Shown piece by piece: positions 1,796-15,184 of a DNA stretch of 30,675 bases. Every line of letters begins with the position of its first letter. The stretch's first letter is position 1. The position numbers and the translations under genes are program-made. The notes under the pieces are model-generated. The model had not been told where the DNA came from. It saw only the letters and a program-made list of their open reading frames with translations, and ran no database searches. The stretch is from a virus, in IMG/VR virus record IMGVR_UViG_3300025311_000014, positions 1 through 30,675 of that record; one strand, 5' to 3'.

Positions 1796-2030
1796 GCTGC
1801 ACCTCCAGTTCCTGACGGTCGGCACGGCGCAGCATGGCTAGCGCGTTGAGATAGGCACGCCGATCGCTCGGCGTGCTGCTGGTGAAGATGAAGGGCCGCC
1901 CGGGTTTGGAAAATCGCAGGTGGCCACCGTTGGTGCGCGAGGCTGACCAGCCAGCCGTCCAGGCGTAAGCGAACAGCGGAAAGGCGGACTTGCCAAATCG
2001 GCGGGGCTGAGTGATGACGATCTCGGTCAT
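1788..2030 (-). CDS. Small phage protein, unknown function
   Basis: 80 residues beginning MTEIVITQPRRFGKSAFPLF. The middle, with GGHLRFSKPGRPFIF and TPSDRRAYLNALAMLRR, looks like a small alpha/beta fold, vaguely like double-stranded-RNA-binding or HicA-type domains, but the HicA catalytic histidine context is not convincing and no antitoxin neighbour is present. ATG 2030 has GGAGGT six bases upstream and overlaps the methyltransferase stop as ATGA. The open frame continues upstream to 2303, but that part is shadow sequence of the methyltransferase. Its coupling to the methyltransferase suggests co-expression, not necessarily shared function. Confidence 0.75.
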   Translation of the reverse strand: MTEIVITQPRRFGKSAFPLFAYAWTAGWSASRTNGGHLRFSKPGRPFIFTSSTPSDRRAYLNALAMLRRADRQELEVQHG

Positions 2031-3712
2031 GGCCGCACCTCCAGCTGGCTGACGCTCAGCCCAACCGCCACCGGGCGCACCCAGATCGGCATGCTGTTGA
2101 GCATGAAGGTCTCGCCGGCGCCGGCGAGCAGCAGGGTGGTGCCCATGACGTGGGCGATCGCTTCGGCGGCGGATGGCGGTACCGCGTTGCCGATCCTCTC
2201 GCGCCAGGCCTGGTCGCTGAGGCCGTCCAGTTCCAGTTGATCCTCTGGATCTACCAGTGATTGCAGTGCAGCCAGCTCCAGGGTGGTGAACGGACGGTGC
2301 CAAGTGCCATCCAGCGAGCGGATGACGCAGGTCAGGCGTTCATTCGCCGCCGGCATGCGTGGATCTGCTACAGACCAGCGGCCGTTGTCGTGGCAGGCGC
2401 TGGCCGATACCGCGCCGGCGGCCTGGTCGAAGCCGACCACACCGTAGTGGCCTCCGGTCAGGTAGGCGTCGCCTTTCTCTTTAGCCATGCCCGGGCGTGG
2501 ATCTTGAACTGCAAACGCGCCCTGGCCGGTGGTGCTGCCAGAGATTACGGTGCGGCAGACTCCTTCCCACTTGGCCACGTTGTACTTGCCATGACCAATG
2601 CCAGTGTCTCGCGGATCAGCCACCGCAAATTGTCCCTGCCCAGGTGAGCACTGGCTGGGGATTGTTCCCGATGTTTGATCCCAGCGGCGAACCCCGTACT
2701 GCTGGCCATGGTTCCAGTCTGCTGACTGGGCATAGCGCGGATCGGCGACCGAGAACGCGCCATTGGTTGGGCTGGAGCGGCCGGCGACGGTGCCGGCGGT
2801 GTCGCGCCAGTCGTGCACGCCCAGGTAGCCGGCGCGGTACTCCGGCACGATGATCAGGTCGCGCAGGTAACCATCCTCGATCGCCAGCTCGTTGAGCGAA
2901 CGCCAGTCCTTACCAGCCGTGACCAGGGCGAGGCGCACCCAGGTTTTCCACTGCAGGGCTGGTACCCGATGCATCGGCCCTGCGGCATCGATATCGCCGG
3001 CCAGCGGCATGCGGCCGAGGATGTCGCCGACGGCGCGCAGGGTCTTTTTCTCCGGTTCGTAGAGGAACGGCGGCACCTTCTCGACATGACGGGCGACCAG
3101 CAGGAAGCGCTTGCGGCTCTGCGCCAGACCTCCTATCACGCCGCAGTCGTGGGTGGTTTCGGCCACGGCGTAACCGTAGAAGGCGAGCAACTTGCCGATC
3201 TGGTCGAGCAGGTGACGGCCCCGGGTGGCCAGGCGCGGGACGTTCTCGAAGACGATCAGCGATACCGGGTTGTGCTTCCAGGCCTCACACATCAGCCAGA
3301 CACAGCGCAGAGTCAGTTCGTTGAGCGCCTGGTATTTCGGAGTAAGGCTCATGGTTTCCGAGAGCAAACCGCTCGCGCCCTTACAGGGGCTGCTGATAAA
3401 CACCGCGTCCGGATCACCGTTCTGTGCAGCGCGGCGGATGTCGTTTGGCGTTGCTTCGCGCCAGCCGGCAGGCGGCTCGACGCCGTGAAAGCGGGTGTAC
3501 TGGTCACGGGTGAATAGATCGAGCAGGGTGCCGGGTACGCCTGCAAGGCGCTGGAAGTCTCGCAAGCCGGCCGGGTCGACGTCGATCCCGCCCAGGCATT
3601 GCCACTCGGCCTGCATGGTGCCGACTATCGGCTTGGCACGGTTGAAGCCTTTGGCACCACCGCCGAGGCCGCAGCAGAAGTGGAAGTGCTTGAGGATGCG
3701 TTTAGCGAGCAT
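2027..3712 (-). CDS. Orphan DNA (cytosine-5-) methyltransferase with repeat insert
   Basis: Transfers a methyl group from S-adenosylmethionine to C5 of cytosine in a DNA target. The 561-residue protein has the ordered motifs of this family: motif I FCCGLGGG (12-19), motif IV with catalytic C110 in SSPCKG, motif VI ENVPR (156-160), motif VIII QSRKRF (198-203) and motif X IGNAVPP (507-513). Between VIII and X, where the target-recognition domain belongs, four units end in FSVADPR, FAVADPR, FAVQDPR and WSVADPR (about residues 295-452). No restriction endonuclease is nearby, so it is an orphan enzyme, probably protecting phage DNA from host restriction or altering regulation. ATG 3712 has AAGGGG about eight bases upstream and overlaps the preceding gene by 11 bases. 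The target sequence cannot be predicted from sequence. Confidence 0.92.
   Translation of the reverse strand: MLAKRILKHFHFCCGLGGGAKGFNRAKPIVGTMQAEWQCLGGIDVDPAGLRDFQRLAGVPGTLLDLFTRDQYTRFHGVEPPAGWREATPNDIRRAAQNGDPDAVFISSPCKGASGLLSETMSLTPKYQALNELTLRCVWLMCEAWKHNPVSLIVFENVPRLATRGRHLLDQIGKLLAFYGYAVAETTHDCGVIGGLAQSRKRFLLVARHVEKVPPFLYEPEKKTLRAVGDILGRMPLAGDIDAAGPMHRVPALQWKTWVRLALVTAGKDWRSLNELAIEDGYLRDLIIVPEYRAGYLGVHDWRDTAGTVAGRSSPTNGAFSVADPRYAQSADWNHGQQYGVRRWDQTSGTIPSQCSPGQGQFAVADPRDTGIGHGKYNVAKWEGVCRTVISGSTTGQGAFAVQDPRPGMAKEKGDAYLTGGHYGVVGFDQAAGAVSASACHDNGRWSVADPRMPAANERLTCVIRSLDGTWHRPFTTLELAALQSLVDPEDQLELDGLSDQAWRERIGNAVPPSAAEAIAHVMGTTLLLAGAGETFMLNSMPIWVRPVAVGLSVSQLEVRP
2357..2830 (-). repeat. Four degenerate repeats in the methyltransferase recognition region
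   Basis: The encoded protein contains four units of about 30-45 residues (approximately residues 295-326, 339-368, 377-406, 423-452). Each has a YGV/YNV-like start, a W/F-D/E pair, a GTV/RTV/GAV core, a short Gly-rich turn and a closing [F/W][S/A]V[A/Q]DPR. The units are diverged at DNA level, which points to old duplications under protein-level selection. Confidence 0.8.
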
Positions 3713-5084: not shown

Positions 5085-7805
5085 TTACGGTTTCTTGAAC
5101 ATCCAGCATTTGACGGTGGTGCAGCGCGGCGACATCTGGTTGCGCAGGTTGAAGGCCGCGCGCACGGCGCTGTCGACGCTCTTGTTGCTCTCGATGTAGG
5201 CCCGGCTGCGGCTGCTTTTGAGCAGGTTGCGCAGGGTGCCGATGTCGGCCAGCTTCTGGCGGTGCTCGGCGGCGCGTTCGCAGAACTCGTTGAGGTTGAT
5301 GGCGATCAGGTCGTTCTTGCTGTGGTTGACCACCGCGTCTTCGCTGATCGACTCCAGGTACTCGAACACCTCCCAGAACTCGGCCACTTCCTGCGGGTCG
5401 GCGTTGATCGCGCCCTGGCGCTCGATGGCCATGCGGGTCAGTTCGGCGAGGGTTGCGGCGTGCTGCTGGTCGGTGAAGGGCACCATCAGGCGCATGGCGT
5501 CGACCATGGCCATCAGCTGGGCGTGGTTTTTGATGATCCGCTCGACGCGGATCTGGTTGAGGGCGCGCAGGGTGCCCTCATGCACCTTGACCTGGCGGCG
5601 GAAGACTTCGAGCACCGGCTGCTCGGCCTTCACCGCCAGCAGCAGAAAGTGGCTCACGTCCAGGGTGTTGAGGTGGTTGAGGTTGTCGACCGCCGCGCGG
5701 CTGGCGCTGGTGACATCGGGGCGCACGAAGTGCAGCTTGATGATGCGCGTGAGGATGGCCTCGCTAGCGGTCACCGTGGCGTTCTGGCTGATGGCGATGG
5801 TGCCGCGAAACGGTGGCTCGTAGGTTTCGTTGCCGGCCGTCTTGACGCCGGTGACGCCCAGGGTGCCGCCGTTGAACAGCGGTTTAAGCTCGTCCCAGTC
5901 GTAGGCCTTGGCCATGCCGCGATCGTTGTCGCTACGGTCGGCCTCGAGCAGCACCAGGGGCATGCCCGATATCTGGCCCATCCAGCGGCGCAGGCCGGCG
6001 CGGGTCATCTTCGAGGGGTCTTTGCCTTCCTCATCGGGGCGGCCGAGCAGCTTCCACAAAAAGTTGAGCAGGGTGGTCTTGCCGGCGCCGGCCTCGCCGG
6101 TCACCTCCAGGAAGGGGAAGGACTGAAACTCGGCGCGGATCTGCTCGGCGAACAGCGAGCCGAACCAGAACGCCAACGCCACCAGGCCCTGGGTACCGAA
6201 ACTAATCCACAGCCAGTCGAGCCACTCCTGCCGATAGCCCTGGTTGTCGCGGGCGATTTCCAGCTTGATCGACTTTTGCAGGGTCTTGAGGCGCAGCTTC
6301 TTGAACTCAAAGTAGTCCTCAGTGTTGGCATGGGCAATCACGCCGCCGCGCACGGCGAAGTCGCCGAACACATAGCAGCCGTGTTCCTTGCTGTAGCCGA
6401 TGTAGTCGATGGTCTGCACGGTTTTCAGGCCGTAGAGCTGGTCCTTCATGATCCTGACCAGCTGCCCGGTGCTGCCGGTGAACATCGCGCCGGCGGCCAT
6501 GCCGAGCAGGCGCTTGTTGAAATCCGGGGCGGCTGCCACCTGGCCGCTGGTGAAGGTGTTGAGCAGGCTGGGGCCATCGTGCTGGAAGTCCACGCGGAAG
6601 TAGTACCAGGACTCGTCGGTCACCTCGTTGCGCTGGAAGTACAGCGCCTGCGGGTAGCAGTTGGCGATCTCCACCACGCCGCCGCACTGGTACAGGGCCT
6701 TTTCGCTGCGCTGCTTGTCGTTGAGCAGCTTGTCGGCCTGGCGCTCGGAGTCCTCGAGCTCCTGTACGGCGCGGTTGAATTTCTCCAGGTCCATCTTGAA
6801 CCAGTACATGCGCTGCTCGAAGCCGAAGTGAAACTCATGGCGCGGGCGCCATTCGTACATCAGCACGCCCTTTTCGGCGGCGCTTTCGGCGATCAGCAGG
6901 GCGCCGTGGTAGCGCGCCTCGTTCAGGTCATTGGTGACCTTGTCGGCGCGCTTTTCCGCGTCATCGATAAAGGCCCAGCGCTGGTGAAGGTCGTTCCAGT
7001 CGGCTTTGCGCTCGCGCTGGGGGATCTGCGCGGCGGTACAGCTGTAGCCCAGGTCGCGGGCCAGCTTGATGTGCTTGCGGGTGTAGCGGTGCGCGCCGGG
7101 TTCGTTGTCCAGCGCCCAGACCAGCTCGGGCAGTTTGCCGCCGCGCTGGCGCGACAGTTCCTTGAGCGATTCCTCAGGGAAGTAGGCGCTGCTCATGGCC
7201 GACACGGCGGCGATGCCGTGGTGCAGCAGGGCGATGGCGTCGAAGATGCCCTCGACAATCCACAGCTCTTTGGCCTCGAGCAGGTCCACGCACGGTGGGC
7301 ACCACCAGTGGCCGCGCGGGCTCTGCCCAGGGGCGAAGCGCGCTTTCATCTTGCCGAAACGATGCGGGCGGTCGATCAGGCGCTCCCAGTAGCCGCCTTT
7401 CTCCAGGGGGAAGCGCACGGTGGCGCTGCCGATGCCCTGGGTGCGGTCCCAGTAGTTGTCCTGGCTGTACCAGCCCTTGATCAGGTGCAGGTCGAAGCCC
7501 CTGGCGAACTGCAGGTAGCTGTCGACCGAGGCATTGGGGGTGGCGTCGGTGGCCGGGGCGCGCTTGCTCCAGTCGTCGAACAGATCCTCGAACAGCTCTT
7601 TGACGTGCCACTGCTCGCCGCACTTGCTCTCGCGGCCACAGCGGATGAACCAGGGCTCGTCCTGGCGGGAATACAGCTCCCGCTTGCCGCAGCTCGGGCA
7701 GGTGCCCTTGCGCATCCAGGGCGTGCCCTTGGCGTGTTGCAGGCCATAGTCGGATTCCAGCCGGCGCAGTACTTCGCTGCGGATCTCGCGCTCCATGGTT
7801 TTCAT
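5085..7805 (-). CDS. Phage replication protein: zinc-ribbon, Toprim-like, P-loop ATPase (primase/helicase-like)
   Basis: 906 residues with a replication-protein layout. A zinc-ribbon (CPSC at 36-39, with C56 and C62) resembles primase zinc-binding domains. A Toprim-like region follows: LWIVEGIFDAI (181-191) with the conserved Glu, and ALDNEPGAHR (231-240) as the candidate acidic motif. A C-terminal ATPase domain has Walker A GEAGAGKT (570-577), a Walker B-like LVLLEAD (617-623) and a sensor-like segment TIAISQN (669-675). It probably primes and unwinds phage DNA, in place of the rolling-circle A protein of P2. ATG 7805 overlaps the preceding stop as ATGA and has GGGAG upstream; an ATG at 7796 is the alternative. 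The frame upstream to 7961 is shadow sequence. The Toprim DxD is not canonical, so the primase activity is inferred. Confidence 0.88.
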   Translation of the reverse strand: MKTMEREIRSEVLRRLESDYGLQHAKGTPWMRKGTCPSCGKRELYSRQDEPWFIRCGRESKCGEQWHVKELFEDLFDDWSKRAPATDATPNASVDSYLQFARGFDLHLIKGWYSQDNYWDRTQGIGSATVRFPLEKGGYWERLIDRPHRFGKMKARFAPGQSPRGHWWCPPCVDLLEAKELWIVEGIFDAIALLHHGIAAVSAMSSAYFPEESLKELSRQRGGKLPELVWALDNEPGAHRYTRKHIKLARDLGYSCTAAQIPQRERKADWNDLHQRWAFIDDAEKRADKVTNDLNEARYHGALLIAESAAEKGVLMYEWRPRHEFHFGFEQRMYWFKMDLEKFNRAVQELEDSERQADKLLNDKQRSEKALYQCGGVVEIANCYPQALYFQRNEVTDESWYYFRVDFQHDGPSLLNTFTSGQVAAAPDFNKRLLGMAAGAMFTGSTGQLVRIMKDQLYGLKTVQTIDYIGYSKEHGCYVFGDFAVRGGVIAHANTEDYFEFKKLRLKTLQKSIKLEIARDNQGYRQEWLDWLWISFGTQGLVALAFWFGSLFAEQIRAEFQSFPFLEVTGEAGAGKTTLLNFLWKLLGRPDEEGKDPSKMTRAGLRRWMGQISGMPLVLLEADRSDNDRGMAKAYDWDELKPLFNGGTLGVTGVKTAGNETYEPPFRGTIAISQNATVTASEAILTRIIKLHFVRPDVTSASRAAVDNLNHLNTLDVSHFLLLAVKAEQPVLEVFRRQVKVHEGTLRALNQIRVERIIKNHAQLMAMVDAMRLMVPFTDQQHAATLAELTRMAIERQGAINADPQEVAEFWEVFEYLESISEDAVVNHSKNDLIAINLNEFCERAAEHRQKLADIGTLRNLLKSSRSRAYIESNKSVDSAVRAAFNLRNQMSPRCTTVKCWMFKKP

Positions 7806-8074
7806 TGGCCGTGCTGCTCCCAGTTCCAGGTGGTGGCGAGGTCTTGCAGGTCGCGCAGGGCCTGCTGGGTGACGCCCCACTGAATGAGGTCGTGGTCGGC
7901 CATGGCGGCGAGGTAGCCGATCAGCATGCCCAGGCAGCGGCTGGCCTCCCCGGTGTCGCACTTGCGTGCGGCTTTCTCCAGCTGGCTGAGCCAGCCCATG
8001 GCCATGGGTCGGCTGGCGATGTGGCGGGCCAATGGGGCGGACGCCTCGAGGGCGGCTTTAACGGCGGGGCTCAT
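7802..8074 (-). CDS. Small hypothetical phage protein
   Basis: 90 residues, predicted mostly helical (MSPAVKAALEASAPLARHIA, then WLSQLEKAARK, RDLQDLATTWNWEQHGQ). No motif recognised. It is joined by 4-base ATGA overlaps to the genes on both sides, directly upstream of the primase/helicase-like gene. It could be a replication accessory factor by position only. Confidence 0.7.
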   Translation of the reverse strand: MSPAVKAALEASAPLARHIASRPMAMGWLSQLEKAARKCDTGEASRCLGMLIGYLAAMADHDLIQWGVTQQALRDLQDLATTWNWEQHGQ

Positions 8075-8376: not shown

Positions 8377-8715
8377 TTAGAGGGTGTGGTTGGCGATAAA
8401 GCGGCTGGGCAGGATGCGCCGCGGCATCAGGGCGCGTTCGCCGGTGCGGCGGTCGATCAACACCACGCTGCTGTAGTCGGAGCCGCTGGCCAGGTCGAAG
8501 CCGATCAGGGCTGGCTGCGGCTCGCCCAGCTCGCTCATGGCCAGGTGCACCAGGCGCTGGGCCATGAACACCGGCACCTCCATGGCTTGCACCAGGTAGC
8601 GGGCGGCGCGCTCGAACAACTGCGCGTCGTCGCCCAGGTGCTCGGCCTGATGCCGCTGCAGAAAGCTGCGGGCGGCCTGCTGCATGCTGTCGCGGTATTC
8701 CATGGCTTCGCTCAT
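8377..8715 (-). CDS. Hypothetical phage protein
   Basis: 112 residues. The N-terminal 75 residues look helical (MSEAMEYRDSMQQAARSFLQ, then FERAARYLVQAMEV) and the C-terminus has a short strand-rich piece (GFDLASGSDYSSVVLIDRRT). The family is not recognised. Its ATG overlaps the stop of the Ogr-like gene as ATGA, so translation is coupled to that regulator. It is followed by the hairpin at 8333-8371, where the chain of overlaps breaks. Confidence 0.7.
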   Translation of the reverse strand: MSEAMEYRDSMQQAARSFLQRHQAEHLGDDAQLFERAARYLVQAMEVPVFMAQRLVHLAMSELGEPQPALIGFDLASGSDYSSVVLIDRRTGERALMPRRILPSRFIANHTL

Positions 8716-8999
8716 GAGTGCATCTCCAGTTGGTCGACCAGGTCGAGTTGTGCGTCGTGTTCGTTGCGCATGCAGGCCCGACGCTGGGCGCTGTTAGCCT
8801 GGGGCAGCTGCACGGCGGGGTTGGCCATGCCGCTGGGGCCGAGTTCGTGGGTCATCTGGAACTCGGCGCGCACGCTCCAGCTGCAGGCCTCGTTGGTGCA
8901 CTGCAGGTAGGCAATGCGCAGGAAGATGTGCTGGCCCTCGCTGGTGCGGATGCGCATGCGGCCTTGGCAGTGCGGGCAAACCAGTTTGTAGACGCTCAT
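8712..8999 (-). CDS. Ogr/Delta-like zinc-finger transcription activator
   Basis: 95 residues with the signature of the P2 Ogr / P4 Delta family: a CX2C...CX4C zinc-binding site (C8, C11, C34, C39, 22 residues between pairs) and a downstream GPSGMANPAVQLP segment. Family members bind dyads upstream of late promoters and recruit host RNA polymerase through its alpha subunit. This protein therefore probably turns on the late leftward operons. Candidate sites are the dyads at 20139-20157 and 24844-24862. In P2, ogr is at the far right of the late region; here it is embedded in the early operon between the YmfL-like and unknown genes with ATGA overlaps, which would make late expression depend directly on early transcription. 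GGAGG lies about eight bases before ATG 8999. Confidence 0.9.
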   Translation of the reverse strand: MSVYKLVCPHCQGRMRIRTSEGQHIFLRIAYLQCTNEACSWSVRAEFQMTHELGPSGMANPAVQLPQANSAQRRACMRNEHDAQLDLVDQLEMHS

Positions 9000-9498: not shown

Positions 9499-9708
9499 TT
9501 ACGGTTTAACCACGCCATCTTTGATGCCGAGTAGTACGGCGGCGCGGTGAGCCTCGCCGCGCTTGCCTTTCTTTCGACCGTTGAGCAGATCGCTGACCAG
9601 ATTTCTGTTCAGGTCATGTTCGCGGCAGAACTCGGCGATGCTTTTCCCCTCGCGGTCAAGAGCCGCGCGGGCTTGCTCGGGAGTGAGAAGGGCATGCATA
9701 GTGTTCAT
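9499..9708 (-). CDS. Cro-like DNA-binding regulator (BcepMu gp16-like)
   Basis: 69 residues. A helix-turn-helix is visible in KSIAEFCREHDLNRNLVSDL followed by basic NGRKKGKRGEAHRAAVLLG, as in the BcepMu gp16-type phage regulators. It is the first gene of the leftward early operon and diverges from the repressor, so it probably plays the Cro role: blocking repressor transcription and committing to lytic growth. The ATG at 9708 lies inside three tandem 10-bp repeats (9700-9729). ATG 9699 (MHALLTPEQ) is an alternative; neither has a strong Shine-Dalgarno. A near-copy of the promoter sequence at 9746-9764 lies inside this gene at 9598-9616. Confidence 0.88.
   Translation of the reverse strand: MNTMHALLTPEQARAALDREGKSIAEFCREHDLNRNLVSDLLNGRKKGKRGEAHRAAVLLGIKDGVVKP
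9598..9616. repeat. Copy of the early-promoter 19-mer inside the cro-like gene
   Basis: CAGATTTCTGTTCAGGTCA here and CAGATTTCTGTTCAAGTCA at 9746-9764 differ at one base of 19. This copy encodes the helix-turn-helix part DLNRNL of the Cro-like protein. Such a long match between coding and promoter DNA 148 bp apart is unlikely by chance and suggests a second operator. Confidence 0.6.
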
Positions 9709-9729
9709 CCGTGTTTAATCGTGTTTGAT
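9700..9729. promoter_or_regulatory. Three tandem 10-bp repeats, candidate operator
   Basis: AGTGTTCATC, CGTGTTTAAT and CGTGTTTGAT lie head to tail, in phase with the DNA helix, covering the predicted early-transcript start and the start codon of the Cro-like gene. P2-type repressors bind direct repeats, so this is a candidate repressor or Cro operator. Confidence 0.6.
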
Positions 9730-9736
9730 GAAGGGG

Positions 9737-9765
9737 ATTCTTGGGCAGATTTCTGTTCAAGTCAA
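9737..9765 (-). promoter_or_regulatory. Putative leftward early promoter
   Basis: On the minus strand, TTGACT (9765-9760) and AAGAAT (9742-9737) are separated by 17 bases. The -35 is near consensus and the -10 is weak. The spacer is the 19-mer repeated at 9598-9616. The start point would be near 9730, about 20 bases before the Cro-like gene. Confidence 0.6.
9746..9764. repeat. 19-mer repeat within the early promoter, candidate operator
   Basis: CAGATTTCTGTTCAAGTCA overlaps the -35 element and spacer of the leftward promoter and matches 18 of 19 bases at 9598-9616. Binding here would block polymerase. Confidence 0.6.
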
Positions 9766-9767
9766 CT

Positions 9768-9773
9768 TATATT
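9768..9773 (+). promoter_or_regulatory. Putative -10 of the repressor promoter
   Basis: TATATT matches five of six -10 consensus bases. It would start transcription near 9780, only a few bases before the first usable repressor start codon, so the mRNA may be nearly leaderless. No good -35 is seen, which fits a promoter that needs activation or a weak maintenance promoter. Confidence 0.4.
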
Positions 9774-9783
9774 GATCAAAAAA

Positions 9784-10119
9784 TTGTTCATAGAGTCAGG
9801 GGTCGGTGAGCGCCTGAGAGAAGAACGGGATCGGCTGGGCCTGAATCAGACCGATTTCGGCGTGGCGGCGGGGGTCAGTCGCGGCACACAAAAGGCCTAT
9901 GAACTGGAATCCAGCTCGCCTGATATCCGCTACCTCAGCACCCTGCAGGGCATGGAAGTGGACGTGCTTTACGTGTTGACCGGGGAACGGTCGACGATGG
10001 ATGCCGATGGCCTGACGGCGGAGGAAGCCAAGGTGCTCGAGCAGTACCGGACAATGTCGCCGGAGAGCAGGGCATCGGTCGAGCGAGTGGCCGAGGCGCT
10101 GGCGAATTACAAAATCTAA
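9784..10119 (+). CDS. XRE-family phage repressor (C/CI-like)
   Basis: About 111 residues. GERLREERDRLGLNQTDFGVAAGV is an N-terminal helix-turn-helix of the XRE type, here read as GERLREERDRLG plus LNQTDFGVAAGVS. The product continues with SPDIRYLSTLQGMEVDVLYVLTGER, typical of short Pseudomonas phage repressors, and ends in a helical tail (EEAKVLEQYRTMSPESRASV). No peptidase domain is present, so it should not be a LexA-like self-cleaving repressor; P2-type C repressors are also short. It diverges from the Cro-like gene. The start is uncertain: no ATG or GTG precedes the helix-turn-helix in frame, and TTG 9784 (or TTG 9772) is the only reasonable choice, possibly on a nearly leaderless mRNA. 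The open frame upstream to 9547 is antisense shadow. Confidence 0.88.
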   Translation: MFIESGVGERLREERDRLGLNQTDFGVAAGVSRGTQKAYELESSSPDIRYLSTLQGMEVDVLYVLTGERSTMDADGLTAEEAKVLEQYRTMSPESRASVERVAEALANYKI

Positions 10120-10128
10120 GGAATGACG

Positions 10129-10473
10129 ATGACCAGGAATGGATTGTTCGGGCTGGTGATCGCCAGTCTGCTGCTTGCGGCCACTGCGGCGGTCGCCGCC
10201 AATATCGAGCTGGTGAGCGCCGATGACTACGGCCAGGGCTGGCCATTCACCCTAGATGAGGTGCACCTGCTGTGCCTGGACGGTAACGCGGTGGTGGCCT
10301 CCGATCCTGAAAGCGGGCGCATGTACCCGCTCAACGGCAGCGCCACTGCTAAGGCTACCAAGCTCGCCTTGGAACCGTTGGCGCCTATCTGGCGAGATGA
10401 TCCGGCGTTGCATGGCGCCAAGCTGAGTGTGTCGCCGATGATTGAGCGAGGGCTCGCACTATGCCAGGGCTGA
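10129..10473 (+). CDS. Secreted DUF2511-like protein
   Basis: 114 residues with a clear signal peptide (MTRNGLFGLVIASLLLAATA, cleavage probably after AVAA near residue 22). The mature part has the look of DUF2511/YebY-like periplasmic proteins: LVSADDYGQGWPFTLDEVHL, CLDGNAV, YPLNGSA, and two cysteines (about C46 and C112) that could form a disulfide. Function unknown; a periplasmic role in the lysogen is likely. ATG 10129 has AAGGA six bases upstream; ATG 10123 is too close to it. The gene follows the repressor by nine bases and overlaps the next regulator, so it is part of the lysogeny operon and should be expressed in the prophage state. Confidence 0.82.
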   Translation: MTRNGLFGLVIASLLLAATAAVAANIELVSADDYGQGWPFTLDEVHLLCLDGNAVVASDPESGRMYPLNGSATAKATKLALEPLAPIWRDDPALHGAKLSVSPMIERGLALCQG

Positions 10474-10703
10474 TCGAACTCGACGACGACACAGCCTTCG
10501 GTGCGCGCCTGCGCGCAGAGCGTGAACGGCAGGGGCTGGAGGTGCACGAACTGGCGCACCTGGCCGGCCGCCCGGATATCACCCAGAAGCGTTACGAAGC
10601 GGGCAGCACCCCCATCCCGATTGACTACCTGCAGGCGCTGCATGCGCGCAGCGATGTGGACGTGTGGTTTGTCATCACCGGCCAGCCTGGCGCGACTGGA
10701 TAG
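10461..10703 (+). CDS. Second XRE-like regulator in the lysogeny operon
   Basis: 80 residues. FGARLRAERERQGLEVHELA and the following AGRPDITQKRYEAGSTPIPI resemble the XRE repressor fold. SDVDVWFVITGQPG at the C-terminus matches the VDVLYVLTGER end of the repressor core at 9784-10119, so the two genes look distantly paralogous. The turn of the helix-turn-helix (GRPDITQKRYE) is unusual, and DNA binding may be altered or lost; it could instead dimerise with the first repressor. ATG 10461 lies inside the end of the DUF2511-like gene (13-base overlap), with GAGGG about ten bases upstream. Confidence 0.78.
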   Translation: MPGLIELDDDTAFGARLRAERERQGLEVHELAHLAGRPDITQKRYEAGSTPIPIDYLQALHARSDVDVWFVITGQPGATG

Positions 10704-10946: not shown

Positions 10947-10957
10947 GGAAACAGAGG

Positions 10958-10980
10958 AGCCCCGGGCTGATTCCGGGGTT
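10958..10980 (+). terminator. Terminator-like hairpin after the 38-residue peptide gene
   Basis: AGCCCCGG (10958-10965) pairs with CCGGGGTT (10973-10980, one G-T wobble) around a 7-base loop, followed by TCGAC. The short U tract makes it a moderate terminator at best. It lies 11 bases past the peptide stop codon. Confidence 0.55.
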
Positions 10981-11043
10981 TCGACTATGGTGAATGCGGC
11001 ACTAGCGTTCGCAGATGCCACCACCACAGCAAGGATGCGACCC

Positions 11044-11265
11044 ATGTTGACTCTCTCTCGCCGTATCGACCAATCAATCGTGCTGACCGTCGCCGATGAC
11101 GTCGACACCGTGCAACTGGCCGAGGCCCTACGCCAAGGCATCACCATCACTCTATGCGATATCGGCGCGCATCAGACTTGGGCAAAGATCGGCGTGGATG
11201 CGCCGCGGGAGGTGCGCGTGTTACGGAGCGAATTATTGCAGCGCAGTGATGGGATGGTCGAATAA
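11044..11265 (+). CDS. CsrA/RsmA-like RNA-binding protein, prophage-encoded
   Basis: 73 residues. MLTLSRRIDQSIVLT is the CsrA N-terminus (usually MLxLxRrxgEsI), and KIGVDAPREVRVLRSELL matches the conserved GI-APkevxvxReEi end that contributes to the RNA-binding face. The central part is longer and diverged (VADDVDTVQLAEALRQGITI), so it is not the chromosomal copy. CsrA/RsmA proteins bind GGA motifs in mRNA leaders and usually repress translation. A prophage copy could rewire host RsmA control or regulate phage mRNAs, several of which carry strong AAAGGAG leaders. ATG 11044 has AAGGA eight bases upstream; the frame from 10987 lacks one. It lies just upstream of the ATPase gene on the same strand. 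Confidence 0.85.
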   Translation: MLTLSRRIDQSIVLTVADDVDTVQLAEALRQGITITLCDIGAHQTWAKIGVDAPREVRVLRSELLQRSDGMVE

Positions 11266-11316
11266 CGAATGTGCAAATTTAAATTTTACGGATCAATAAC
11301 TCTGGCGGGATGATAA

Positions 11317-13395
11317 ATGGATATTACCATTGAGAACTGCAATAGCATCGATAGTGCCAGGATTTCGCTGACTTTGGGGCGGCTAAATATAAAGTACGGC
11401 CCTAATGGAACAGGTAAAAGCACAATTGCAAAGGCAATCGAGCTTGCCGCTCTCGGTGGAGACGATCTCCCGAACCTAACGCCGTTCAAACACCGAGGTA
11501 AGGATGCAGGTGTCGCAATGGTGCCAAAGGTGACCGGCACGGATCAATTCAAGTCGGTTCTTGTATTCAACGAGGATTACGTTGATAAGTTTGTTTTTAC
11601 GCAAGAAGAAGTCGTAAAAAATAGCTTCGATATCTTCATTAAAAGCAGCGAATATGACAAGAAAATGGAAGATATTGAGTTGCTAATATCGGAGATAAAG
11701 GACACCTTCAAGAGAAATGAAAACATAGAGCAGATTTTGAGAGACCTTACTGAACTAAGTGAAAGCTTTGGTAAGTCTCAAGCGGGGTTTTCAAAATCTG
11801 GTCGGATAGCCAAGGCAATTGGTGGTGGGAACAAGTTGGAGCATATCCCGGACAGCCTGGCTCCATACACTAGCTTCATCAAGAGCGATTCTAATGTTAA
11901 GTGGATTGGCTGGCAGATAAAAGGTAACGACTTTCTCGAGATTTCTACTGAGTGCCCATATTGTGCATCACCCACAGCAGAAAAGAAGGAGACCATACTC
12001 GCCGTTAGTAAGGAATATGATGCCAAATCGATAGAGCATTTGAATATTCTATTGGCGATAGTTGCCAGGCTCGGAAAGTATTTTAGTGGAGATACTTTTG
12101 AAAATATCGAGAAAATTATAAAAAACAAATCTGAGTTGAGAAAAGAGGAGATAACCTACCTGACTGGCCTTAAAAGCCAGATTGATACGCTGCGCGAGAA
12201 GCTGCAGGACCTGAAGTCAATTTCATTCTTCTCGCTTCGTGATGTCGGTGAAATTCAGAAGCAAATTAATTCTCTGAGGATTGATCTTGGCCTCTTAAAG
12301 GCATTGGACTCAGAAGAAACCAAATTAATTGTTGATCAAATTAACCAATCTCTAGATCTTGTGCTTGGCAAGGCTGGCAAGCTGCAGGGGGAGATCAATA
12401 AACAGAAGATAGGTATTGAGGCGGCAATAAATAGGTATAAGTTGGAAATTAACAACTTTCTCCGCTATGCGGGTTACAAGTACGAAGTCGATATGCAGGC
12501 GGAAGCCGATTCGTACAAGATGAAGCTAAAACACTTCGAGTTCTCAGAGCATATCGCAGATGGATCACGTCACTTGAGTTATGGTGAAAGGAATGCATTC
12601 GCAATCGTGCTTTTTATGTACGAATGCCTGACAAAAGCTCCAGATTTTATTGTCCTTGATGATCCGATTTCGTCATTCGACAAGAATAAAAAGTTCGCCA
12701 TAATGGAGATGTTGTTTCGCGGAAAGAATAGTTTTAGTGATAAAACTGTTCTAATGCTGACACATGATATTGAGCCGATCATTGATATGGTGAAAAGTCT
12801 TGGCCACACTTTTCAACCAATGCCGGTTGCAAGCTTCTTGAGCTCTAAAGCTGGCGTGGTAACCGAGCTCGATGTTAAGAAAAAAGATATCCTCACGTTC
12901 GCCCAAATTTGCGATGAAAATATCAAGTCCCTCGATAGTGATGTTATCAAGACGATTTACCTTCGGAGGCTCTACGAGATTATGGACGACAAGGGGCTCG
13001 AGTATCAGTTGATCTCAAACCTCCTTCACAAAGAGCCTAATCCGGTAATCAAGGGAAATGGCGGCGATAGGCCAATGACCGTCGATGAAATAGCTAGTGC
13101 GACCGTTGGGGTTAAAGCGAAGCTGCTTTCGTTCGAGTTTGCCACACTATTAACGGCGGTTCTCGACGATGTGGCGATGAGGGAAGCGTATGCAAAGGCA
13201 ACAAATGGATATGAGAAGCTGCAGTTATTCAGAATAATAAACCAAGACAATCATAGTAATGATGTTGTAAAAAAATACATCAATGAGTCGTACCATATTG
13301 AGAACGAGTACATCATGCAGCTCAATCCGCACAAATACGACTCTGTGCCCGAATACATCATTGCAGAGTGCGACCAGGCAATGGGTATTCAGTAG
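11317..13395 (+). CDS. ABC-type ATPase (SMC/PrrC/RloC-like), candidate anti-phage cargo gene
   Basis: 692 residues. Walker A GPNGTGKST (28-36), ABC signature LSYGER (420-425), Walker B FIVLDDP with D-loop SSFD (444-454) and H-loop histidine H483 in LTHD define an SMC/RecF-like ABC ATPase split by a coiled-coil middle (about 110-400). The middle contains CPYC (213-216), which recalls the zinc hook of Rad50/RloC. The C-terminal ~200 residues are helical, with R639 and H646 (RIINQDNH) spaced as in HEPN RNases, and no Toprim or HNH motif. The gene is clearly more AT-rich than its neighbours and sits as a lone rightward cargo gene between the regulatory region and late gene D, a place where P2-like prophages carry defence genes. 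Function as abortive-infection ATPase/nuclease is inference. GGGA lies about seven bases before ATG 11317. Confidence 0.85.
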   Translation: MDITIENCNSIDSARISLTLGRLNIKYGPNGTGKSTIAKAIELAALGGDDLPNLTPFKHRGKDAGVAMVPKVTGTDQFKSVLVFNEDYVDKFVFTQEEVVKNSFDIFIKSSEYDKKMEDIELLISEIKDTFKRNENIEQILRDLTELSESFGKSQAGFSKSGRIAKAIGGGNKLEHIPDSLAPYTSFIKSDSNVKWIGWQIKGNDFLEISTECPYCASPTAEKKETILAVSKEYDAKSIEHLNILLAIVARLGKYFSGDTFENIEKIIKNKSELRKEEITYLTGLKSQIDTLREKLQDLKSISFFSLRDVGEIQKQINSLRIDLGLLKALDSEETKLIVDQINQSLDLVLGKAGKLQGEINKQKIGIEAAINRYKLEINNFLRYAGYKYEVDMQAEADSYKMKLKHFEFSEHIADGSRHLSYGERNAFAIVLFMYECLTKAPDFIVLDDPISSFDKNKKFAIMEMLFRGKNSFSDKTVLMLTHDIEPIIDMVKSLGHTFQPMPVASFLSSKAGVVTELDVKKKDILTFAQICDENIKSLDSDVIKTIYLRRLYEIMDDKGLEYQLISNLLHKEPNPVIKGNGGDRPMTVDEIASATVGVKAKLLSFEFATLLTAVLDDVAMREAYAKATNGYEKLQLFRIINQDNHSNDVVKKYINESYHIENEYIMQLNPHKYDSVPEYIIAECDQAMGIQ

Positions 13396-13469
13396 CCTCG
13401 GGCTCTAACTTTTAGGTCAACCGGACGCTCGAAAGCGGGCGGCTCTCCGAACGTGCTGCCTCGCGCACG

Positions 13470-14747
13470 CTAGTTACCAACACGCTCAGCCGCTTCCTGC
13501 AGTCTTTGCCACTCCCGATCCACCGCCCGCTGTGCGCTGGCCTTGCTGGCGTAGAGGTGCGTCAGGCGTTTGGGTTTGGCCTGGTCGCCGGCGGTGAGCG
13601 GGTGCTGGGCGCCGGTCTTTTCGTCGCGGTACCAGGCGAGGATGCCGGTGTAGTCGCCGCTGTCGTCGGCCAGCTCGGCCAGGTCATCGGCGTCGGGCAG
13701 TTTGGATTCCAGCTCCAGGCTGGTGGTGTAGGCGTCGGGGGTGAAGCTGTGGTTGATGTTGGCGCCGAGCCAGACGATAGCGCCGATCTCGGCCTTGATG
13801 CCGTGCAGGGCGTAGGTCAGTTCGGGGATGAGCTCCGGGCGGCCTTTGGCCAGGGTGTAGCTGAGCGTGGCCGTGCCGCGCTGCAGGCGGCTCCATTCGG
13901 CGCGAGCGGCGGCTAGGGCGCTGGCCTGGTCGGTGTAGGTGTGGCGCAGATCCTTGAGGTTGTCGCCGGCGCCGGCGATGGCGGACTTCTTCGCGGCGCT
14001 GTTGACCTCGTAGTAGTAGGCGCGCACGCCGCTGTAACTGTCGCGGTCGGCTTGCAGGTAGCGGTGCTGGTCGCCGTCCTGGCGGGTGAGGGTGATGTGC
14101 GGCAGGGGCAGGCCGCTGGCGCTGGTGCTTTTGCCAGCGGGCATGAACAGCAGGCGCCCGGCTTTGACGGTGGCGATGGCGTCGTGCTGGTCGCCCAGGC
14201 GGGCGAGCAGGTTGGCGTCGCTTTCGTTGGCCTGGTCGAGGTGCGCCAGGCCGATGGCGGCCAGCACCGGGGCGATGAGGGCTTGCAGGCCGTTGCCGGC
14301 GGCGAGGCTGCTGATGACCTCGCCCAGGGTGGCGGCGTGCCAGCTGCGCTCGCGCTTGCTCTTGAGGCCTGTGCGTAGGTCGGCGCTGCGGGCGCGGATG
14401 CTGAGCACGTCGGGCGCGCCGCTGTGCTCGGTTTCATCCACCGTGTAGCTGCCTTTGTCGGTGAGGCCGGTGTCACTCCAGCCGAGCCAGAGGCGCACGC
14501 CGGCACCGTGCGGGGGAATCGCCAGCAGGCCGTCGTGGTCGCTGAGTTGGATGTTGAGGGTGTCGGCCTCCAGCCCTCGGTTGTCGGTGAGGTTGATGCT
14601 GACCAGGCGCTGCTCGATCACGGCGGTGATGTCGCGGCCGTCCACCAGTACGCGGCAGATTGGCCGGGCGTAGCTGGCTTGTTGGCGGTAGCTGTCTGCT
14701 GCGCCCTGTAGCAGGCCGCTGGCACGGCTGAGCAGCGGGTTTATCAC
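13470..14747 (-). CDS. D: Tail protein gpD (late control D family)
   Basis: 425 residues, homologous in layout to P2 gpD, a tail hub-type protein joining the tube tip and baseplate. Recognisable parts are the N-terminal ARPICRVLVDGRDIT, the region RLVSINLTDNRGLEADTL, LWLGWSDTGLTDKGSYTVDE, and the long central beta/helix region (HAATLGEVISSLAAGNGLQA). The GTG start at 14747 overlaps the U stop as GTGA, and this gives the correct N-terminus VINPLLSR; the open frame further upstream is shadow. It is the last gene of the FI-to-D operon. No convincing terminator follows (13396-13469), and it converges on the ATPase gene. Confidence 0.92.
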   Translation of the reverse strand: MINPLLSRASGLLQGAADSYRQQASYARPICRVLVDGRDITAVIEQRLVSINLTDNRGLEADTLNIQLSDHDGLLAIPPHGAGVRLWLGWSDTGLTDKGSYTVDETEHSGAPDVLSIRARSADLRTGLKSKRERSWHAATLGEVISSLAAGNGLQALIAPVLAAIGLAHLDQANESDANLLARLGDQHDAIATVKAGRLLFMPAGKSTSASGLPLPHITLTRQDGDQHRYLQADRDSYSGVRAYYYEVNSAAKKSAIAGAGDNLKDLRHTYTDQASALAAARAEWSRLQRGTATLSYTLAKGRPELIPELTYALHGIKAEIGAIVWLGANINHSFTPDAYTTSLELESKLPDADDLAELADDSGDYTGILAWYRDEKTGAQHPLTAGDQAKPKRLTHLYASKASAQRAVDREWQRLQEAAERVGN

Positions 14748-15184
14748 AGGACACCGCGAATAAGGTTGCCGAGGGTGCCGGTGAGGCTGCCGAGTAGGTC
14801 GACACGGCCGTCGTCGATGCGCTTGAGGTTGATGGTGAACTCGATGCGCCGCGCGGCGCCGTCGCGGAAGAACAGGGTGCGGGTTTCGCTCAGGGAGTCG
14901 ATGACCCACAGGCCGTAGATGCGCCCGCTGCCCTCGATCAAGGGCCAGGCCTTGCCGGTGTCGGCCATTTGCCGGATGACGTCGAGGCTGATCTGGCTGC
15001 CGGCGATTTCGGCGAGCAGCACGCCGGGCAGGGTGATGGCGTCTTCGCCTTTGCCCATGAATTGGCGCGCCGGGTTGGTGCCGATGCGCGAAGTGCTGCC
15101 GTGGCGCCAGTCGGTTTGGCGCTGCAGCTCCTGGTAGGCGAGGGTGTGCATGCCGAATACGAACATGCCGAGGGCCATCATCAT
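14744..15184 (-). CDS. U: Tail terminator protein gpU
   Basis: 146 residues matching the gpU family: MFVFGMHTLAYQELQRQTDW, PARQFMGKGEDAITLPGVLL and GLWVIDSLSETRTLFFRDGA are typical. gpU caps the tail tube and sheath and is needed for joining to the head. Three consecutive ATG codons begin the gene (15184, 15181, 15178), with GGAG nine bases before the first. It overlaps D by four bases and follows T by six. Confidence 0.93.
   Translation of the reverse strand: MMMALGMFVFGMHTLAYQELQRQTDWRHGSTSRIGTNPARQFMGKGEDAITLPGVLLAEIAGSQISLDVIRQMADTGKAWPLIEGSGRIYGLWVIDSLSETRTLFFRDGAARRIEFTINLKRIDDGRVDLLGSLTGTLGNLIRGVL

Follow-up and report, generated by a model that had tools for sequence, protein, structure and literature searches.

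A hook-bearing ABC ATPase gene beside gene D of a P2-like temperate phage: a probable RloC-like defence cargo

Introduction

RloC is an anticodon nuclease which excises the wobble nucleotide of its tRNA target (PMC2610378, PMC3874168). Cleavage requires an R-x3-E pair and a histidine (R692, E696 and H737 in the Geobacillus protein), and the nuclease is held in check by a zinc hook (PMC2610378). It is activated by its own ATPase in the presence of linear DNA, and also by inducers of double-strand breaks (PMC3874168). P2-like phages of E. coli exchange defence genes at a hotspot between gpA and gpQ, and a relative of P2 in Vibrio does so between cI and the integrase gene (PMC9122126).

PrrC, an anticodon nuclease linked to type Ic restriction-modification (R-M), joins an ABC ATPase to a putative R/E/H triad, as does the protein described here. 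It is about 396 residues long and lacks a zinc hook, whereas the present protein carries a CPYC motif. A further point of comparison is PDC-S06, a single-gene phage defence candidate in the PADLOC collection. Canonical AAA_13 proteins of other genomes match PDC-S06 models other than PDLC04889; PDC-S06 is therefore an umbrella over RloC-like proteins and the PDLC04889 subgroup, and broader than the latter. In the literature we found no experimental reports on the PDLC04889 subgroup.

Here we analyse a gene of this subgroup in a phage genome. We consider it probable that this gene is, on its own, an RloC-like abortive-infection system of divergent and compact form, which a P2-like temperate phage carries as exchangeable cargo. 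The family was already catalogued as a defence candidate; what we add is the RloC-like reading with its residues, the unusual C-terminal domain and the documented cargo spot.

The locus and its composition

The window, i.e. the whole stretch of DNA analysed, is a virus record of 30,675 bases. It opens at a tRNA-Ser (20-109), followed by genes for an integrase (230-1411), a C5 methylase (2027-3712), a primase-like protein (5085-7961), an Ogr-like protein (8712-8999) and two lysogeny-type HTH proteins (9547-10119 and 10461-10703). A DUF2511 gene (10123-10473), kept in many relatives, lies between the two HTH genes. Gene D is found on the minus strand at 13470-14909 (Pfam Phage_GPD), and the tail genes run from there onward. 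The best annotated relatives are Sirocco and Dobby (Peduoviridae, Citexvirus), which match at ~76% over 25-37% of the query.

The gene of interest is an intact ORF at 11317-13395 on the plus strand, with an ATG start codon which agrees with homologues opening MDIxIxxCN. It encodes a 692-residue ABC ATPase. The window ORFs and the Phage_GPD match confirm the placement given by an earlier sequence-only reading, with the lysogeny genes on one side and gene D on the other. On the lysogeny side its immediate neighbour, 51 bp upstream, is a CsrA-like gene (10987-11265, plus strand; Pfam E=1.2e-11), whose protein has no match in annotated phages (E 0.01) or in the viral contigs searched.

The same reading had described the gene as markedly AT-rich, and the measurements agree. 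Its GC content is 0.428 versus 0.657 for the remaining window. Windows of equal size elsewhere in the record have a mean of 0.663, a standard deviation of 0.024 and a minimum of 0.606, which places the gene about 10 standard deviations below them. The CsrA-like gene has a normal GC content (0.58), and the AT-rich stretch begins in the 51-base gap which follows it.

The ATPase half and the hook

The nucleotide-binding motifs first read from the letters are all present, and in 26 relatives they vary little or not at all. On the plus strand, they comprise the Walker A motif GPNGTGKST (residues 28-36; 11398-11424), the ABC signature HLSYGE (residues 419-424; 12571-12588), the stretch IVLDDPISSFD (residues 445-455; 12649-12681), in which Walker B (IVLDDP, 445-450) is followed by the D-loop (SSFD, 452-455), and the H-loop LTHD with H483 (residues 481-484; 12757-12768).

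Profile searches give the protein a family. It matches Pfam AAA_13 (E=7e-22) and, in line with the anti-phage role proposed at the outset, the PADLOC model PDLC04889 of the candidate family PDC-S06 over its full length (residues 1-689, 968 bits). For comparison, a canonical RloC-like set (L127-L154) was assembled by searching 399 genomes of the phylum with Pfam AAA_13; these proteins are called RloC-like on the basis of AAA_13 membership, a CxxC hook and the R-x3-E...H arrangement, and not by reference to a biochemically tested RloC sequence. One protein related to this set is homologous to Streptococcus phage genes annotated as 'translation-disabling ACNase'. An hhalign comparison of 26 family members with 21 AAA_13/RloC-like proteins aligns residues 2-489 at 99.8% (E=1e-29). 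The same alignment places CPYC (residues 213-216; 11953-11964, plus strand) on the CPFC hook of the RloC-like proteins, and both C213 and C216 are kept in every family member which covers the site. CPYC thus looks like a CxxC hook of the RloC type at the apex of the coiled coil, with putative zinc binding. Neither the cysteine pair nor the conserved C-terminal domain had figured in the sequence-only reading.

The full AlphaFold2 model (pLDDT 83) shows an SMC/Rad50-like head with a coiled coil, and the best Foldseek matches in the PDB are the heads of SMC, RecN and Rad50. These matches would equally suit a DNA-repair or maintenance ATPase of the Rad50/RecN type, which aids the phage or mobile element and does not block competitors. 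We regard this as improbable: the protein ends in a further conserved domain which Rad50 lacks, and the occurrence of its homologues, presented below, also argues against a maintenance role.

Of the kin named in the earlier reading, RloC and PrrC stand as possible relatives. A PrrC identity was rejected: the PrrC profile matched the ABC region alone (E=6e-4) and no hsd genes, hence no type I R-M locus, were noted among the window ORFs read. The OLD-type part of the proposal was not supported, as the C-terminal domain is predicted to be helical and Pfam gave no TOPRIM match; the Gabija and IbfA types were set aside on the same grounds. IbfA of IncI1 plasmids, a 518-residue ATPase with TOPRIM, had been considered for the many E. 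coli plasmid homologues.

The C-terminal domain

Residues 522-692 (12880-13395, plus strand) are predicted with confidence to form a helical domain (AlphaFold2 pLDDT 87, pTM 0.84), which is the putative RNase effector. Foldseek found no fold match in the PDB (best E 0.24) and no HEPN structure among the best matches. Aligned alone with RloC tails, the domain gave no significant profile match (0.4%) in local, global or loosened mode, and hmmsearch against the tails returned E-values of at least 0.09. In view of these profile and fold comparisons, a HEPN fold is unproven. The spacing K653-x6-H660 fits the HEPN pattern [RK]x4-6H loosely, with K and not R in first position.

Across 26 members, down to 28% identity, the residues R550, E554, K653, E657, H660, E662 and N663 are invariant, as are the polar residues Y632, K634 and R639. 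R550-x3-E554 (RRLYE; 12964-12978, plus strand) would constitute a catalytic pair, and H660, the putative catalytic histidine, lies in KYINESYHIEN (residues 653-663; 13273-13305, plus strand), which resembles KFINEYSH of RloC-like proteins. The conserved order, R-x3-E and then K-x2-N-E-x2-H, is the same as in RloC.

The resemblance of the histidine peptide was gauged with a weight matrix built from its RloC-like counterpart and scanned over ~680 windows per member. The H660 window ranks first in 24 of the 26 members. In the other two, namely the query and L024, which is nearest to it, the window comes second behind a non-conserved histidine (H646 in the query). The family median score is 13, and none of 365 background ORFs reaches a score of 8 in its last 75 residues; this background, taken from the same loci and including non-coding frames, is a guide and carries no formal probability. 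The R-x3-E peptide behaves differently between branches. In the divergent branch L116-L119 it reads LRKFIE or LRKLIE, close to the RloC-like LRKFLE, and ranks first, whereas main-branch members show no such specific likeness to RloC in this peptide (rank 17 in the query).

Several differences from RloC accompany these likenesses. The protein has 692 residues compared with ~720-795 in the RloC-like set, its C-terminal domain is not alignable by profile, and the conserved E and H are 103-116 residues apart in the family versus mostly 37-54 in the RloC-like set. The order of helices may also differ between the two kinds of tail. Because of this spacing and the non-significant comparison of the isolated domain, we call the RNase assignment likely and go no further.

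One may ask whether the same sensor ATPase has been coupled to an unrelated effector, neither HEPN nor anticodon nuclease, which would for instance cleave DNA or bind a host target. The lack of a detectable profile or fold match, the long insert between the conserved residues and the additional invariant polar residues (Y632, K634, R639, E662, N663) would be natural under such a scheme. It accounts poorly, however, for R-x3-E and K-x2-N-E-x2-H standing in RloC order and for a histidine peptide which scores above background, and we hold it to be rather unlikely.

Proposed mechanism

The RloC-like reading suggests a course of events which we propose by analogy with RloC; it is the anatomy that the present analysis establishes. 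Both architectures comprise an ABC ATPase split by a coiled coil with a CxxC hook, the coiled coil being short here. The Rad50-like head and hook would sense abnormal or broken DNA, or the ends made by another infecting phage. ATP binding and hydrolysis would then release the C-terminal helical domain, whose R550, E554 and H660 might cut RNA, most likely in a tRNA anticodon loop. Translation would halt before the invader matures, the infection would be aborted and the resident prophage would benefit. We infer DNA sensing and RNase activity, and likewise the defence function and the tRNA target, from this parallel. The defence reading is plausible, and the gene probably shuts down cells which become infected and so protects the lysogen. 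R550, E554 and H660, together with the hook cysteines C213 and C216, make the RloC-like mechanism directly testable.

More tentatively, the subgroup might stand next to PrrC and RloC as a third group of ABC ribonucleases with a hook. It would then have an expanded helical nuclease domain of its own, act on a different RNA, and reside on plasmids and in P2-like phages at the hotspot between lysogeny genes and gene D. We think this extension possible but doubtful.

An exchangeable segment next to gene D

The closest relative phage found (L026) has 89% protein identity in D, 99% in the Cox-like protein and 88% in the primase. Its identity to the window is 84.6% through base 10951 and 91.4% from base 13509 on. 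The segment in between (10952-13508), which includes the CsrA-like gene and the ATPase gene, is replaced there by an unrelated AT-rich gene of 269 residues (42% GC). This ORF (L026:8485-9294, plus strand) has no PADLOC or Pfam match.

The interval was then compared across 80 relatives fetched by their D gene (L026-L105), 64 of which have both interval edges. Its length ranges from 313 to 6,765 bases (median 2,385) and is at most 500 bases in 14 of the 64. In all 50 cases longer than 800 bases, the interval is lower in GC than its own locus. Its 187 ORFs of at least 150 residues form 107 clusters. Known or candidate defence genes occur among them, alongside many uncharacterised ones: PD-Lambda-5 A (L079), Septu PtuA (L076), PDC-M09 A and B (L077) and PDC-S20 (L102), and an Abi_alpha gene is one of the cluster representatives. 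The ATPase itself has no match in the 80 relatives, in Sirocco and Dobby, or in the annotated phage collection. The refuting outcome named in the sequence-only reading, that every related prophage would carry this gene with a base composition like its own, was thus not observed.

Taken together, the GC contrast, the replacement in the closest relative and a variable interval with defence genes support horizontally acquired cargo. Both the acquisition and the variable spot had been anticipated in the sequence-only reading. As at gpA-gpQ in E. coli P2-like phages (PMC9122126), defence genes are swapped at a fixed spot, but the position differs: here it is the stretch from the lysogeny genes to gene D. 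Our survey, which was not exhaustive, found no published description of a hotspot at this position. The spot beside D in Citexvirus-like Peduoviridae appears to be exchangeable and defence-rich, and may serve as a reservoir for new defence candidates.

A related arrangement, which speaks for the RloC-like reading, is seen in a P2 prophage of E. coli APEC O1, where an ABC ATPase gene also occupies a variable spot. The gene (WP_000423308; L168:45933-48149, equal to NC_008563.1 925932-928148) lies between A and Q, whereas the window gene is next to D. Its product is canonical RloC-like (63% to L146) and is similar to the window protein in the ATPase half only. It possibly belongs to the APECO1_4465 group of PMC3710099.

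Homologues and their neighbours

Among the 399 genomes sampled from the phylum, 6 have the C-terminal domain; one of these (G001) is the centre genome of the sample and was already known as a carrier. In a plasmid set which is mostly Enterobacterales, 906 records match the protein, and in 781 the match spans at least 80% of its length. Viral members lie in other prophages, with tape-measure, terminase or portal genes close by. This patchy distribution, the mobile-element and R-M contexts and the absence from all fetched sister phages fit poorly with the repair ATPase considered above. The R-M contexts speak for the RloC-like reading, and spread on mobile elements, single-gene organisation and, in some cases, R-M neighbours are shared with RloC.

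The neighbourhoods are diverse and often include R-M genes. One homologue has a BsuBI/PstI-type endonuclease and a methylase directly upstream, another a methylase and a DEAD/DEAH-box helicase gene, and others have type II endonuclease or methylase genes close by. Further neighbours include an Abi family gene, a nucleotidyltransferase with a pore-forming effector, and VapBC. Chromosomal and MAG loci add EcoRI-type and other methylases, Vsr, GmrSD and AlwI families.

No single partner gene recurs across those annotated contexts that were inspected, and the flanks vary by element, which fits a single-gene system as first suggested. The companion suggestion, that the ATPase acts with small genes of the prophage, is not supported: the CsrA neighbour is absent from the annotated homologues inspected. 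The same observations bear on a multi-gene system, be it Lamassu with the ATPase as its LmuB-like component or a pair with the CsrA-like gene. The short distance to the latter and a match to the LmuB model (E=1.7e-18) would be in keeping with it; yet that match is incomplete and falls far short of the one to PDLC04889, and no LmuA-like ORF adjoins the gene. Lamassu was rejected on these grounds, and we judge any multi-gene arrangement to be very improbable.

Two loci deserve mention for their surroundings. A fragment matching RtcR, a regulator of RNA repair, is located near a family member (L008:73-915); an RtcR/RtcB pairing was dropped there, as by inspection the ORF after the RtcR match is not RtcB. 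The divergent branch L116-L119 (28-30% identity) comes from contigs of the viral collection, and at least L118 adjoins a radical-SAM-type gene.
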